From Pyrinomonadaceae bacterium (GTDB taxonomy: Bacteria > Acidobacteriota > Blastocatellia > Pyrinomonadales > Pyrinomonadaceae): 64,000 nucleotides of DNA. A program made the position numbers and the translations under genes. The notes below the pieces were generated by a model. It was not told the DNA's origin and searched no databases. It worked only from the letters and a program-made list of their open reading frames with translations. Each line of letters begins with the position of its first letter. Position 1 is the stretch's first letter. Below, in pieces: positions 36,064 to 43,142 of this stretch. The stretch lies in the NCBI GenBank assembly GCA_021228405.1, contig JAJQRF010000001.1:826462-890461 (forward strand). Direction: 5' to 3'.

Positions 36064-37512
36064 ATGCGAAGAGCAAAAATTTTAGCAACACTCGGACCTG
36101 CATCGAATACGCAGGAAACCATCGAAGCAATGATCGAAGCCGGACTTAACGCCGTCCGCATCAATATGTCGCACGGCAGTTACGAAGAACACGGCGCGAC
36201 CATCAAGCTTGCCAAAGCCGCCGCGAAAAAGCTCGACCGCCCGCTCGCGATCCTGGTCGATCTTTCGGGACCGAAAATTCGCACGGGACTTCTGCAAAAC
36301 GCCAAGCCCGTCATTCTCGAAGCAAACGCCGAATTTGTCATCACGTCGCGCGAGATCGAGGGAAACGCGTCCGAAGTTTCGACCAATTTCAAGGAAATTC
36401 CGAAGCTCGTCCAAAAGGGCGATAAGATTTTGCTCGACGACGGCGCGATCGAACTAACCGTCAAAAAAGTTACGAAAACCGACGTGACGACCGTGATCGT
36501 CAACGGCGGAGTTTTGAGCGAGCGCAAAGGTATTAATTTGCCGAACACCAAACTTCCGATTCCCAGTTTGACCGAAAAAGACCGCAAGGATTTGGAATGG
36601 GCGATGACGCAGGACGTTGACTACATCGCGCTTTCGTTCGTCCGTCAGGGTTCGGACTGTAAAGAGGTGCGGGATTTAATCAAAAAGCTCAACACGCGCA
36701 AATGGGGCAGACCGATGCTGGTCGCCAAGATCGAAAAAGCCGAAGCGATCGAAAATCTCGACGACATTATTGCCGAAACCGACGGCTTAATGGTCGCGCG
36801 CGGCGATCTCGGCGTTGAAACCAGCGCGGAACTCGTGCCCGTTTACCAGAAACTCATCATCGAAAAAGCCGTGATGCGCGATAAATTCGTGATTACGGCG
36901 ACGCAGATGCTGCAATCGATGGTTGAAAACCCGCGCCCGACCCGCGCCGAAGCGTCCGACGTGGCAAATGCCGTCTGGGACGGAACGGATGCAGTGATGC
37001 TTTCGGCTGAAACGGCGGCGGGCGCGTATCCCGTCGCATCGGTCGCGACGATGGCGCGCATCATCGATTCTGCCGAAACCGTTAAAACGACGAAATTGAA
37101 ACGTCCCGTCAAATTTTCGGAAGCACCGACGGGCAGAACTTCACAGGCAATCTGCAAAGCGGCGGCAATGGCGGCGCGCGAGATTTTGACCGATAAAGTC
37201 GCCGTGTTTACCGAATCGGGTTTGATGGGGCGGCGTTTGTCGTCCATCCGTTCGGGACTTTCGACGTATGCGCTGACCAACACCGCCGAAGTCCGCAATC
37301 AGCTTGCTTTGATCTGGGGCGTTGAACCTTTGCTTCACCAGCAAATGGACACGACCGAAGGAATGCTCGAAGACGGCGAAAAGATTCTGCTTTCCGCCAA
37401 AGTCGTCGAAAAAGGCGAAACGATCATAATGATGGCGGGAAGATTATCAGGCTTAGGGCTTTCGAGTTCGGTCATCGTCTGGACGATCGGCGAAAACACG
37501 CCGCGCAGGTAA
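36064..37512 (+). CDS. pyk: Pyruvate kinase
   Basis: 482 residues, normal for the enzyme. Motifs are complete: AKILATLGPASNTQETIEAM, VRINMSHGSYEEH, LVDLSGPKIRTG, VAKIEKAEAIENLDDIIAET followed by DGLMVARGDLGVE (catalytic Lys and metal-binding Glu/Asp), and ATQMLQSMVENPRPTRAEAS. It makes pyruvate and ATP from phosphoenolpyruvate in glycolysis. The C-terminal allosteric domain is present. It probably shares a transcript with the upstream genes from 32084 on. Confidence 0.97.
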   Translation: MRRAKILATLGPASNTQETIEAMIEAGLNAVRINMSHGSYEEHGATIKLAKAAAKKLDRPLAILVDLSGPKIRTGLLQNAKPVILEANAEFVITSREIEGNASEVSTNFKEIPKLVQKGDKILLDDGAIELTVKKVTKTDVTTVIVNGGVLSERKGINLPNTKLPIPSLTEKDRKDLEWAMTQDVDYIALSFVRQGSDCKEVRDLIKKLNTRKWGRPMLVAKIEKAEAIENLDDIIAETDGLMVARGDLGVETSAELVPVYQKLIIEKAVMRDKFVITATQMLQSMVENPRPTRAEASDVANAVWDGTDAVMLSAETAAGAYPVASVATMARIIDSAETVKTTKLKRPVKFSEAPTGRTSQAICKAAAMAAREILTDKVAVFTESGLMGRRLSSIRSGLSTYALTNTAEVRNQLALIWGVEPLLHQQMDTTEGMLEDGEKILLSAKVVEKGETIIMMAGRLSGLGLSSSVIVWTIGENTPRR

Positions 37513-37822: not shown

Positions 37823-38707
37823 TTACACGAATTCGTTGGTGGATTTTTTGTATTTTTTGTTGAAAACTCCTGCGTCGGTCAGTTTTTTGATGACGGCGCG
37901 AACGGTGGCGATACGCGAAGCGTAGAGCGGCTGTCCGAGTTGTAAGAGTTTGTTGTAGGCGAGTTCGTGATTGCCGCCGGTGTTGAGCGCGGTGATTATC
38001 TGGCTGCTCTTGGCTCTTCCCTGGTGGCGGATGTCGCAGATGACCTGACAGACCTTGGCGGGAAAACCGTCGAGATTATAGCTTTCGGCGTAATCCTTCA
38101 TATTTTCCTTGAAATGGTCGATTGCCACCTGCACCTGAAGCTTGCGGTGTTGCGGGTCGTTGCTTGCCCAATGCACCATTCGCGCGGCACAGATCAGTTC
38201 CTGATTTTCGATGGTATCGAGCGTCGGGTTGAGATAATCCAGCAACGCTTTCGTCGATGAATCGTTTTCAAGTTGCGAAAGCGAACCGCCCGTATTGCGG
38301 TAAAAGATGCGGTTATTCTGCAAAGTCAGCTTCGGAAAATAATCCGACGCATTCGGCAGGGCGAGAAGCTGTTTGAAGAAACGGACGAAATCGCCGTTCG
38401 GAACGTGCGCGGCATACTGCATAAAGCCGAACGTAAACCTGGCGCGGTCGTAGGTGTTCAGACAGAGAAACGAATTATTGCTTTCCGCCTTGGCGGTCGG
38501 GGCGATGAAATATGCCCAGAAATCGTAATCGTTTTCGTAATCTTCGGGATTATAAACCAACCCGGCGGGCGTGCTCAGATTGAACAAACCGTGTTTGGTA
38601 TGCTCGAAAACCGTTTCCTTGCCGACCAGAAACCTCGGCTCGGCAGTGCCGATAACCTGTGCAAAATGCGAATTGTTTGTCTTTGAAAACTGAAAATTCA
38701 GTGCCAT
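37823..38707 (-). CDS. Uncharacterised protein, possible lysozyme-like hydrolase
   Basis: 294 residues with no signal peptide. The central segment AKAESNNSFLCLNTYDRARF followed by TFGFMQYAAHVPNGDFV looks like a lysozyme-superfamily active-site region (catalytic Glu, then a G-x-M-Q element), and a long helical part follows to residue ~230. The last ~60 residues (SSQIITALNTGGNHELAYNK onward) look like a separate small helical domain. Cell-wall cleavage is inferred, helped by the neighbouring DUF2272 gene. AAGGAG precedes the ATG. It is last in a leftward run of four. Confidence 0.5.
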   Translation of the reverse strand: MALNFQFSKTNNSHFAQVIGTAEPRFLVGKETVFEHTKHGLFNLSTPAGLVYNPEDYENDYDFWAYFIAPTAKAESNNSFLCLNTYDRARFTFGFMQYAAHVPNGDFVRFFKQLLALPNASDYFPKLTLQNNRIFYRNTGGSLSQLENDSSTKALLDYLNPTLDTIENQELICAARMVHWASNDPQHRKLQVQVAIDHFKENMKDYAESYNLDGFPAKVCQVICDIRHQGRAKSSQIITALNTGGNHELAYNKLLQLGQPLYASRIATVRAVIKKLTDAGVFNKKYKKSTNEFV

Positions 38708-38751: not shown

Positions 38752-39330
38752 TTACGTTTTCAGATTTTTGATGAGTGAAATGAACGGATTTGCCGTGCGC
38801 TGTTTGATAAATCCCTGCGCGTCCAGACGCACGATCTTGCGGCGGATCGAATCGCCTTCGTTGCCGCCGATGGTCAAGGCGAATCCGCCTTCCGAATCAA
38901 CGCCCGTTTCGACCACGATCGCCGAATGCGACGCATAGTCGGCGTTATTTTTGGCAAATTGGAAATTGAACGTTTCGCCGTTGCGATTGTTCTGGATAAT
39001 ATCGCCGACGGCGGGTTTGTCCTTTGTGATGTCAACGCCGCGAAATACGCCCGTGTTGTTCGTCGCGTTTTTGATCGCCTGGTGCACAAAGACCGAATGC
39101 TGTGCCGAAAACTTAAATTCCGCCGCCGCCGCGCCCGCTTTTTTGACGCAGAACGAAACGAAGACCGCCGACCACGGAACGGTCGAACAACTGACGAAGG
39201 GCGCGATGCCCTGCCAGTATTTCTTGATCTGCGCGCATAAGGGCGGCTCGGTTTCATCCATCATATGAAACATATTGTGCTGTTCCTGCGCGATCGACGC
39301 TAATTTTAATGCAAATGCTGCTGGTGCCAT
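38752..39330 (-). CDS. DUF2272 domain protein
   Basis: 192 residues, nearly all one DUF2272 domain: CSTVPWSAVFVSFCVKKAG, a following HSVFVHQAIKN, KPAVGDIIQNNR and DYASHSAIVVETG. The layout resembles NlpC/P60/CHAP-type amidase folds, and family members are proposed cell-wall amidases. There is no signal peptide. The last ~40 residues (IRRKIVRLDAQGFIKQRTAN) match the tail logic of the downstream protein. AAGGAG lies before the ATG. Confidence 0.75.
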   Translation of the reverse strand: MAPAAFALKLASIAQEQHNMFHMMDETEPPLCAQIKKYWQGIAPFVSCSTVPWSAVFVSFCVKKAGAAAAEFKFSAQHSVFVHQAIKNATNNTGVFRGVDITKDKPAVGDIIQNNRNGETFNFQFAKNNADYASHSAIVVETGVDSEGGFALTIGGNEGDSIRRKIVRLDAQGFIKQRTANPFISLIKNLKT

Positions 39331-39353: not shown

Positions 39354-40058
39354 TTATGAAATCATTATTTCGGTATTTTCGGAAAATTGTCCGATCTCCT
39401 TGTTGTTTTCGACGAAACGCGAACGGATTTCTCCGGCTTCGGGCGTTTGTGCCTGGGCGGGCGTAATCTGTAATTCGCCCGGCAATTTCGTGAGAAAACC
39501 GACATAAATCCATTCGGTCGTGCCGCGCCGCCGATAATAGAATTTTGCCGCCGACATTTTCTGCATTTTGCCGGTCACGCGGACGGTAAAATTCGGTTGC
39601 GCGGTGTAGGAAAAGTCGGTTTTCGCTTCGGCAAGATTCAATTCTTCGCCTTTTTCCTTGACGATTCTGAGGTCTTTGCCTATATCGACCGTGTAATTGT
39701 CGTTTTCCTTGATCTGTCTGACCTTTTCACGAAATTCGGTCACGAACCCCTTGAACGCGTCGGACGAAAGCGTCAATGCCTGAAAGCTCGGCGGCGGGGT
39801 CGGCGGTTCGCTTTCCTTGCCCGTTTCCATATCGTCGCGCCAATCGTAAACCTGCGAAAAGGTCGCTTCCGTTTGGTCGAGCCAATCGTGAATTGCAATA
39901 AACGTTTGACAGATCAGCTTCAAACGCCTTATCAAATCCGAATTTAAAACCAAGGTCGGCGCGTGCGTGTCGATCTTCGCCAGAAAATTCGCATACATCG
40001 CCCGCTGTTCGGGGCGTGTCGAAGGATACCAATCATTACTCTTAATACTTTCAGACAT
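39354..40058 (-). CDS. Uncharacterised protein with helical N-terminus and Ig-like C-terminus
   Basis: 234 residues from the ATG at 40058. The first ~130 residues are helical and open with NDWYPSTRPEQRAMYANFLA; a C-terminal beta domain (about 150-215; FTVRVTGKMQKMSAAKFYYR) looks like an Ig/FN3-type fold. I have an impression of distant relatives of the same two-part plan, but no known function. The frame stays open for another 79 codons upstream only because it runs through a 21-bp repeat array, so the longer start is rejected. Confidence 0.55.
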   Translation of the reverse strand: MSESIKSNDWYPSTRPEQRAMYANFLAKIDTHAPTLVLNSDLIRRLKLICQTFIAIHDWLDQTEATFSQVYDWRDDMETGKESEPPTPPPSFQALTLSSDAFKGFVTEFREKVRQIKENDNYTVDIGKDLRIVKEKGEELNLAEAKTDFSYTAQPNFTVRVTGKMQKMSAAKFYYRRRGTTEWIYVGFLTKLPGELQITPAQAQTPEAGEIRSRFVENNKEIGQFSENTEIMIS

Positions 40059-40104
40059 ATTTAATCCATCTTCTTTTTTATTCTTAAAACTATTAATTAT
40101 CTTT

Positions 40105-40293
40105 GGAGAATCCTGAATCTTGAACGGAGATTTTATAATTCTCCGTTCCGATTTCTCGATTCTCCATGGAAAATTTGCAATTCTCCGTTCCGATTCCGTA
40201 AGCCTCCGTGGAGAATCTTGAATTCTCCATCCAAAATCCTGATTTCTCCATAGAGAATTCTGATTTCTCCATAGAGAATCCTGATTTCTCCAC
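40105..40293. repeat. 21-bp tandem repeat array of hairpin-forming units
   Basis: Nine consecutive 21-bp units. The consensus begins GGAGAATC, has a short central TGA and ends ATTCTCC plus two bases, so each unit can pair GGAGAAT with ATTCTCC. Units at 40210-40293 are the most alike; others have diverged without changing length. All three minus-strand frames are open through much of it. It lies upstream of the leftward gene that starts at 40058. Confidence 0.88.
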
Positions 40294-40340
40294 ACACATT
40301 TTCAATTTTTCCGTTCCCGATTCGGACTTTTCAATTCAAT

Positions 40341-40528: not shown

Positions 40529-41308
40529 TTAAACCACCGAACTTTCGGCAATTTTGATATTGGTAATCCAGCCGAGCAAAGGTTCATCTTTTGTTCCGTT
40601 CTTGGTGACGAAAACATCCTGACAGCCGAATTGTTTATCCAATGCCGCTTTTGCATCCGCCAACGTTGCGTCTTCCTTGACGATCACGAAATTGTTCGCT
40701 CTTTTTATCATTTCGGGATCGTCGAGCAGGTCTTTCAACGTCAAAGCGTTCGTATCTTGCGGCGGCGAAACGACGGCACGGCTCCGCTCGAATAAAAATT
40801 CGACGATCGTGCTTTTATGAACGATATTGGCGGGAAAATTTGATTCGCTCAGCACGGGAATGCGGTTTCCGCGACGGGTCGCTTCGAGGTCTTTCAGCAT
40901 CGTCGCCAACAAATTCTGTTCAGCGGGCAGTTTGACGCTGAATATTCTTTCGGGCGGCTCCATTTTCTCTTTGACCGGAATGGATTTGAGTTTTTCCTGC
41001 GGCGACATTTGATTAACCAACGCCGTCACATTGCGCGTTGCCGACTCAAAGTTCTCTCTCGAAAAATAAAAGGCGAGAATCGTCCCGACCCAGCTTCCGA
41101 TAAGTGCGACCAATGTGGTGAAAACGGTCATAATCTTGTCCGTGTCGCGCCCAATCACGGTATTACCTTCAACTTCACCTTTAAGAAGCGTAAAAATTGC
41201 TATCGATATTCCCACTAAACCCAAAATCGAGATAATGGAAATCAAAAAAGCCACCCAATCCCTGATCGATGGTTTTTCCTTTACTTCGCTATTATTATTT
41301 TCAGCCAT
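40529..41308 (-). CDS. Membrane protein with C-terminal CBS-like domain pair
   Basis: 259 residues. Two membrane helices (about 17-40 and 62-84), then a short charged linker and a region with the spacing of tandem CBS domains: NRIPVLSESNFPANIVHKST near 145-165, and NFVIVKEDATLADAKAALDK, DVFVTKNGTKDEPLLGWITN near 205-255. CBS pairs sense adenosyl ligands. Its sensing role and partner are unknown. The gene points away from the recombinase gene at 41613, across a 304-bp spacer. Confidence 0.6.
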   Translation of the reverse strand: MAENNNSEVKEKPSIRDWVAFLISIISILGLVGISIAIFTLLKGEVEGNTVIGRDTDKIMTVFTTLVALIGSWVGTILAFYFSRENFESATRNVTALVNQMSPQEKLKSIPVKEKMEPPERIFSVKLPAEQNLLATMLKDLEATRRGNRIPVLSESNFPANIVHKSTIVEFLFERSRAVVSPPQDTNALTLKDLLDDPEMIKRANNFVIVKEDATLADAKAALDKQFGCQDVFVTKNGTKDEPLLGWITNIKIAESSVV

Positions 41309-41411
41309 ACTATTGATTACCGAACAAACGGCTTTCCCGCTGTGTTCACGGATGTTTTAGATTTATCGAAGTTCTTTATAAACCGCTTTGCAGGGCGTTT
41401 TCAACGGCTAA

Positions 41412-41445
41412 TCGGGATAACGTCCGAATTAGGAGGTTATCCCGA
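41412..41445. repeat. 34-bp near-perfect inverted repeat, candidate recombinase core site
   Basis: Two 14-bp arms (TCGGGATAACGTCC at 41412-41425 and its complement with one mismatch at 41432-41445) flank a 6-bp centre GAATTA. Arm length and centre size match tyrosine-recombinase crossover sites, and it lies about 170 bp upstream of such a gene. An operator role is also possible. The rest of the 41309-41612 spacer shows no gene I trust. Confidence 0.5.
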
Positions 41446-41612
41446 AAGAATTTTCGTGAAGCTTTCTGCCGCCAAGTTGAAACCCGAACAACCGATTTAT
41501 CATTTCCGCTTATTTTCCGTCCCGCAATTAATGAATCTTGCTAAAACAATGTTATTTTCCGCGCTCAAAAAGCCATTAACTATATAGAAAGTCTTTTTTT
41601 ACACAGGATTCT

Positions 41613-42539
41613 ATGCAGAAATTCCCCTTATTTTCCGAAGTTTTTCGGCAGACGCTTACCGAGCGCGGTTTGAGCCGTAAAACGATGAACGCGTATCTGA
41701 ACCATTTCCGGCGGTTTGGCGCATACTTTAAAGACCGCGAACCGCTCTCGGTCAAGGCGGACGAGATCGGTGTGTTTTTGAAGCAGTTGGAGCGTGAGCG
41801 GGGATTTTCCGCCGCTACCACCAAACAGGCGGGAAGCGCGATACTGTTTTTCTACCGCGAGATATTAAATTGCGAAAACTTCAAGATAGCACTGCCGAAC
41901 CGCGACCGGCGAAGCGAAAACGCGGTCGTTTATTTCACCGACGCGGAAGCCAAAGCCGTGCTAGCGCGTCTGCACGGTGCGGTTTATCTTGCCGCCGCAC
42001 TGATCTACGGTTCGGGCTTGCGTCTGTCGGAAGTGCTGAAACTGCGCGTCGGCGACATCGATTTTGAACGGCGCGAAATAGTCGTCCGCAATGCCGGCGG
42101 AGCACGCGAACGCACGACATTTCTTCCCGCATCGCTGATCGCGCGTTTGGAAAAACATCTCGAAAACGTCCGCTACGTGTTTGAAGACGATCTGCGGTTT
42201 GCCGAAGAAGTTTCCGCAACTGAAAAAAATTGGCGGCGGCAATTCGTTTTTCCCGCCTGCAAGCTTTCAAAGGACGAAACGACAGGCGCGTTTCGCCGTC
42301 ATCACCTTGCCGAATCGACCATTCAAAAAGCCATCAACCAAGCCATCCGTAAAGCCAAGATCAGCAAACAGGCGTGCTCTCAGACCTTGCGCCACAGCTT
42401 TGCCGCCCGCCTTGTCGAAAATAACTGCGATGTGCATCGGCTTCGCAGTCTGCTCGGGCACAAAAACCTGAAATCGACGCTCGCCTACGCCAATCTCTCT
42501 TCGTCCCGCCGAATGATGTTCAGTCCGCTCGACCTCTGA
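41613..42539 (+). CDS. Tyrosine recombinase of the integron-integrase (IntI) type
   Basis: 308 residues: a SAM-like core-binding domain (about 5-100) and a catalytic domain. Present are Arg137 (GSGLRLSEVLKLR), Arg260 (TLRHSFA), His283 (LLGHKN) and Tyr292 (TLAYAN). The IntI-specific insertion is recognisable around 205-235 (WRRQFVFPACKLS, then GAFRRHH) and the end reads SPLDL, as in IntI proteins. Two expected residues are changed: the His of the HxLRH box is Gln257, and the beta-hairpin Lys region reads AGGARER with no Lys. The gene faces away from a leftward gene block, as intI does in integrons. A weak hairpin (42557-42597) follows the stop. Confidence 0.85.
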   Translation: MQKFPLFSEVFRQTLTERGLSRKTMNAYLNHFRRFGAYFKDREPLSVKADEIGVFLKQLERERGFSAATTKQAGSAILFFYREILNCENFKIALPNRDRRSENAVVYFTDAEAKAVLARLHGAVYLAAALIYGSGLRLSEVLKLRVGDIDFERREIVVRNAGGARERTTFLPASLIARLEKHLENVRYVFEDDLRFAEEVSATEKNWRRQFVFPACKLSKDETTGAFRRHHLAESTIQKAINQAIRKAKISKQACSQTLRHSFAARLVENNCDVHRLRSLLGHKNLKSTLAYANLSSSRRMMFSPLDL

Positions 42540-42779: not shown

Positions 42780-43142
42780 ATGAGAGAGGCGCGAACCGAT
42801 GAAATTTTTCCGGCAATTTATGTTCGGGTTTTGGAAATAAGCGGCATCTTTTTATTCAAAAAAACGCCGGAAACCGAAGAAATCTTTAAGGAATTGAACA
42901 AAAATGCGGAGGAAACCGATTTTGAAAAAATCCGCTGTCCCTTGTGCGAGTGGAAACCATCGAAATCGAGTTACTGGTTTTGTGCGGACTGCGACGCACC
43001 CGAATATTTTTACAACGGTTGCCATACGCAATGGAACACCTTTGAAACTCGCGGAAAATGTCCGGCGTGCGCGCACCAGTGGCGTTGGACTTCGTGTTTG
43101 CGCTGTCACGGCTGGTCGCTCCATGAAGACTGGTATGCGTAG
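42780..43142 (+). CDS. Small cysteine-rich zinc-ribbon-like protein
   Basis: 120 residues. The first ~45 are variable; from about 55 on there are five C-x2-C-type or related pairs: CPLCEW, CADCDAPEYF, CHTQW, CPACAHQW and CLRCHGW, which suggest two or three zinc-binding ribbons. Several Trp/Tyr residues follow each pair. It has no signal peptide. I recognise similar short proteins in Acidobacteria and Chloroflexi without known function. The ribosome site is weak. Confidence 0.6.
   Translation: MREARTDEIFPAIYVRVLEISGIFLFKKTPETEEIFKELNKNAEETDFEKIRCPLCEWKPSKSSYWFCADCDAPEYFYNGCHTQWNTFETRGKCPACAHQWRWTSCLRCHGWSLHEDWYA

Follow-up and report, generated by a model that had tools for sequence, protein, structure and literature searches.

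An integron-derived recombinase of Pyrinomonadaceae with an altered active site, possibly repurposed as a DNA-binding protein at a conserved palindrome

The window analyzed in this study (the whole stretch of 64,000 nucleotides) carries an integron integrase (IntI) gene which encodes a protein lacking two catalytic residues and is preceded by a conserved palindrome, the latter being a new finding of this analysis. Judging from the sequence, the locus is best explained as a frozen (In0-like) chromosomal integron, the integrase of which has taken on the role of a site-specific DNA-binding protein, and we give this reading a probability of about one half. An ancestral integron would first have taken up cargo at attI, and its attC sites would later have disappeared. 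The protein would now bind the palindrome as a dimer and act mainly as a site-specific DNA binder, probably controlling the divergent genes as well as its own; it would exchange strands very slowly or not at all and would no longer handle single-stranded attC.

An intact gene of the integron integrase lineage

The gene and its diagnostic positions are:
41613..42539, + strand: IntI-derived protein P0001 (308 aa), with R137, Q257, R260, H283 and Y292, and with Gly162 at the position of the catalytic Lys
42192..42197, + strand: junction of an 11-codon gap within the IntI-specific insertion (around residues 194/195), from alignments with all other IntI
42381..42383, + strand: codon of Gln257, replacing the His of HxxR, from translation and alignment

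The open reading frame is intact, and the best NCBIfam model for its product was TIGR02249 (integron integrase; E 7.8e-70), whose score of 235.7 bits exceeded that of every Xer model (far ahead of XerC and XerD) and lies below the curated cut-off of 265. The closest solved fold to the predicted structure (mean pLDDT 85.9) was that of VchIntIA (PDB 2a3v; TM 0.78, Z 26.5), while the next-ranked Xer structure gave Z 20. Relatives were sought in 119 genomes of the order Pyrinomonadales, among which canonical IntI genes are common. Only three near relatives (48–51%) were found, in the genomes G029, G030 and G032 of one other genus (g13), and named counterparts are Pyrinomonadaceae and Acidobacteria MAGs. 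In the phylogenetic tree, P0001 and the three g13 proteins formed one clade (support 100/100) inside the Acidobacteriota IntI (support of the IntI stem 98/97). Xer recombinases have a related fold, but P0001 branches with IntI, apart from the Xer proteins of its own genome. Since the HMM, the fold and the tree position agree, P0001 is assigned to the integron lineage. The identity proposed in the first-pass annotation was thus borne out, and the phylogeny with IntI and Xer that it had asked for placed the protein within IntI, not outside.

A phage or plasmid origin of P0001 was considered and rejected: no relative was present in viral contigs, and the plasmid and phage matches were of the IntI or Xer type with <40% identity.

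Active site and insertion

The catalytic set of P0001 is R-G-Q-R-H-Y, compared with R-K-H-R-H-Y in canonical integrases and R-R-Q-R-H-Y in the three g13 orthologues. Its hairpin AGGARER replaces the motif GKGxKDR, placing Gly162 at the first Lys and Arg165 at the second, a variable position. In line with what is known of XerD and lambda Int, we take the first Lys of this motif to be the catalytic one, an assignment based also on its invariance (56/56 other IntI) and on the variability of the second; in one published account the second is named as catalytic (PMC7790495). The catalytic Lys (K160 equivalent) and the HxxR His (H267 equivalent) were lost in all four clade proteins and kept in 56/56 other IntI: the His is replaced by Gln in each of the four, and the Lys by Gly in P0001 and by Arg in the remaining three. 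Both Arg, the His of LGH and the Tyr were retained throughout the clade (4/4). Most of what had been noticed earlier in P0001 was therefore confirmed, namely Arg137, Arg260, His283 and Tyr292, the C-terminal SPLDL, the substitution of Gln257 for the HxxR His, the absence of a hairpin Lys (neither Lys of GKGxKDR is present) and, with the loss of both residues, the suggestion of an altered integrase. The claim that the IntI insertion is kept held in part: the insertion is present, but 11 residues are missing from it in comparison with all relatives.

Integron integrases are thought to owe their handling of single-stranded attC to the I2 insertion, the deletion of which abolishes IntI1 function (PMC7790495). 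In VchIntIA, Q145, K209, Y210 and W219 hold the extrahelical G20'' of attC (PMC3053210). The equivalents of these contacts were lost in 3–4 of the 4 clade proteins, those located in the insertion (K209/Y210/W219) in 3/4. As for catalysis, Cre K201A is inactive and Cre H289A is not, and Gln or Tyr occupies the His position, which tolerates change, in a few recombinases (PMC4381057). Because the Lys substitution inactivates Cre, whereas the His position is tolerant, catalysis by P0001 is probably impaired; the g13 proteins, with Arg at the Lys position, may still perform some chemistry. This Arg, and the retention of Tyr, both Arg and the LGH-His in 4/4 proteins, as in enzymes, count against a repurposed DNA binder. 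The conversion of a recombinase fold into a repressor has a precedent: MrpR of phage SPbeta keeps the Tyr and Lys and has no recombinase activity (PMC10516654).

Absence of an attC array

The attC covariance model was built from sites located beside canonical IntI of the same phylum, and in positive controls it detected the arrays that accompany canonical IntI in the same family, mostly at 30–65 bits. No attC was found in the window with filters off (best 13.7 bits vs 40–65 for most real sites), beside any of the four clade loci, or in G032, and none that was convincing in G029. The genome-wide search, in which 150 of 2071 candidates were scored (a coverage that could overlook an isolated weak site but scarcely an array), revealed one typical solitary attC of 41.6 bits in the carrier genome (L099:8654-8768, i.e. 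G000 contig C7:929653-929767), on a contig other than that of the integrase. The earlier statements that no attC array is seen and that the integrase is solitary thus stand, as no array lies near the gene. An intI-type gene without nearby attC corresponds to In0 elements, i.e. integrases without cassettes (IntegronFinder, PMC9024848). The clade differs from these in being old, in being kept across genera, and in its shared active-site changes, sub-cut-off IntI score and conserved palindrome.

An ordinary working IntI, with attC sites too divergent for detection and with tolerated active-site changes, would agree with the typical attC of the carrier genome and with the known cases of Gln at the His position. 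We regard it as very improbable, as the model that detects arrays in the same family finds none beside the clade or in G032, and the residues gripping attC are lost.

The solitary attC lies directly 3' of a 349-aa ORF, beside a serC-like gene, as a lone integrated cassette. Another genome of the same family, G012 (e.g. locus L086), has a large attC content, with 76 sites found.

Chromosomal position and selection

The genes surrounding the integrase are:
36064..37512, + strand: pyruvate kinase, left chromosomal anchor, from synteny
37823..38707, - strand: divergent gene adjoining pyruvate kinase, with a relative beside the same locus in genome G009
38752..39330, - strand: divergent gene of the same block, DUF2272
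39354..40295, - strand: divergent gene of the same block, without family match
40529..41308, - strand: first divergent gene, at the cassette position; encodes a membrane protein with a weak CBS match
42780..43142, + strand: zinc-ribbon-like protein, right chromosomal anchor, from synteny

In the window and in G029 the integrase gene sits between the pyruvate kinase and zinc-ribbon genes, and in G030 and G032 it adjoins the same zinc-ribbon gene. In G031, a genome of that same genus without the integrase gene, the two anchors are 6 bp apart, and the gene was absent from this position in other genera too. The first divergent gene resembles an old cassette lacking attC, since it is present in only 2/119 genomes of the order.

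All four clade genes have open reading frames. By the Nei-Gojobori method, the closest pair gave a dN/dS of about 0.21 (0.198/0.94), and P0001 with its nearest relative one of about 0.3 (0.449/1.42, with dS near saturation); these values are above those of most canonical IntI pairs, yet well under 1. The dS of the integrase gene resembles that of the neighboring genes, as for vertical descent. On these sequence comparisons the clade gene is under purifying selection. The earlier suggestion of a decaying integrase is not supported, as the residue changes are common to orthologues that are intact, syntenic and subject to such selection. In its slower form, i.e. a cassette-less integrase drifting with the palindrome as an attI leftover, decay would account for the branch leading to P0001, which at 1.32 is four times as long as the median, the elevated dN/dS, the deletion within the insertion and a degenerate attI core (see below). 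We consider it unlikely, given that four frames have stayed intact despite synonymous divergence near saturation, that identical residue changes are found across genera and that the palindrome is conserved amid otherwise diverged intergenic DNA.

A conserved palindrome at the attI position

Three elements were recognized between the first divergent gene and the integrase gene:
41308..41320, + strand: putative degenerate attI core TAC-TATTGATTAC, compared with the family consensus RYYYAAC-TAYTGATTA; it adjoins the first divergent gene at its start codon
41400..41448, + strand: 49-bp conserved block with the 32-bp palindrome CGGGATAACGTCC-GAATTA-GGAGGTTATCCCG (41413-41444), a candidate cognate binding or attI-type site
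41494..41516, + strand: second conserved block GATTTATCA...GCTTATTTT, between the palindrome and the gene, from the four-locus alignment and a right-flank shuffle test

In canonical relatives the homology upstream of intI stops at RYYYAAC-TAYTGATTA, the expected attI/cassette junction; this core is common to loci L008, L010, L011, L015, L018 and L026 and is apparently lineage-specific. The degenerate core at 41308 (TACTATTGATTAC) was equalled by 1/300 shuffled sequences. A clear attI core was not found in the g13 loci, and a consensus scan, covering the sigma-70 consensus only, gave no cassette promoter Pc.

The intergenic DNA upstream of the four integrase genes is largely unrelated except for the 49-bp block and the second block. 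The palindrome consists of 13-bp arms and a 6-bp centre (13-6-13), and its spacing to the start codon is 153–167 bp over the four loci, with a variable left side. The chance expectation of such matches in the window is 0.01. When the 119 genomes were searched for the pattern, the palindrome was found in exactly 4, the four carriers of the clade integrase; the pattern was derived from those same four loci, and only its absence elsewhere is independent evidence. That absence from the 115 other genomes of the order led us to reject a general repeat or a host-regulator box, and the palindrome was not found in viral contigs or plasmids either. Compensatory change in the arms was limited to one pair (T-A to C-G), which is not above shuffles. 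Binding of the protein to the palindrome is suggested because the site is conserved, its spacing to the gene is fixed and the reading frame is selected. A mechanism differing from that of canonical integrases, raised in the first-pass annotation, is possible and has become concrete, as the conserved palindrome occupies the attI position.

Looser GATAAY...RTTATC palindromes were found upstream of intI in the canonical relatives L015, L018, L026 and L030. Since some canonical intI genes have such upstream palindromes, this type of site is probably ancestral, coming from attI regions, and not an invention of the clade. In two of these loci the stretch separating attI from intI holds tandem GATAAY...RTTATC palindromes at intervals of about 41 bp (L030 at -178, -136 and -95; L015 at -113 and -72), and in these working-type integrons they are possible accessory or regulatory sites of the integrase.

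There is one palindrome per genome in three of the four carriers, and G030 has two extra copies. These solo palindromes (L135:1799-1847 and L134:7434-7482) are intergenic, about 155–370 bp from accessory genes that encode a membrane/receiver protein and a VWA protein. The four related genomes that were tested yielded no full-length relatives of these genes; the genes are missing from sister genomes, and orthologous empty sites of the two palindromes were not found. In left-flank similarity, the window and the G030 C40 copy exceed all 300 shuffles. Hybrid half-sites among the G030 copies were considered and rejected, as the outer arm positions merely vary. The solo copies may have arisen by recombination, by duplication or as a regulon.

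The main rival to a repurposed integrase is an active recombinase restricted to double strands. Having given up single-stranded attC, it would have gone back to recombination between palindromic attI-type sites; Arg (g13) or a different residue would stand in for the Lys, and DNA beside these sites would be moved or inverted. The dif site of Xer recombinases is double-stranded, its short inverted arms flanking a 6-bp centre. The 13-6-13 site, the retained R, R, H and Y, the extra G030 palindromes beside genes absent from sister genomes and the cargo varying next to the site between genomes all agree with such an enzyme, as does the ability of IntI1 to recombine attI x attI by second-strand exchange (PMC4792948). 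We consider it rather unlikely, because the catalytic Lys, without which Cre is inactive, is lost in 4/4 proteins (Gly in the window), three of the four carriers have a single site, and the solo sites share ~42 bp, yet a reciprocal junction or circular form was not seen. The fuller version, in which an IntI lineage reversed its history, gave up attC, recombines double-stranded palindromes with an unusual active site and places accessory genes beside palindrome copies, appears distinctly doubtful. The varied distances of the solo palindromes, i.e. no fixed operator geometry, count against the repurposed DNA binder.

Comparison with known systems

The clade shares with Pyrinomonadaceae/Acidobacteriota IntI and with VchIntIA the fold, the SPLDL, the Arg/Arg/His/Tyr set and a putative attI-type upstream region. 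It differs from them in having a fixed locus and in lacking the catalytic Lys, the HxxR His, the attC pocket and an attC array, and, in the window copy, in the shortened insertion. Recombinase folds turned into DNA-binding repressors are known from MrpR/YopR of phage SPbeta (PDB 8a0a) and SroF of phi3T (PMC10516654), both among the structural matches of the P0001 model; unlike P0001, these are phage proteins, distant in sequence and not IntI-derived. A literature search on divergent or domesticated integron integrases returned nothing on point.

A selected natural lineage that erodes its attC-handling parts and keeps an attI-type palindrome would illustrate the fate of an integrase freed from cassettes, and the clade offers a defined protein-site pair for distinguishing domestication from reversion to double-strand recombination.

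Among the loci surveyed, L023 (G035:C216) and L024 (G038:C299), assigned to different genera, lie on equally long contigs with identical hit coordinates and the same in-frame TAG, and the contig is probably shared or misbinned.
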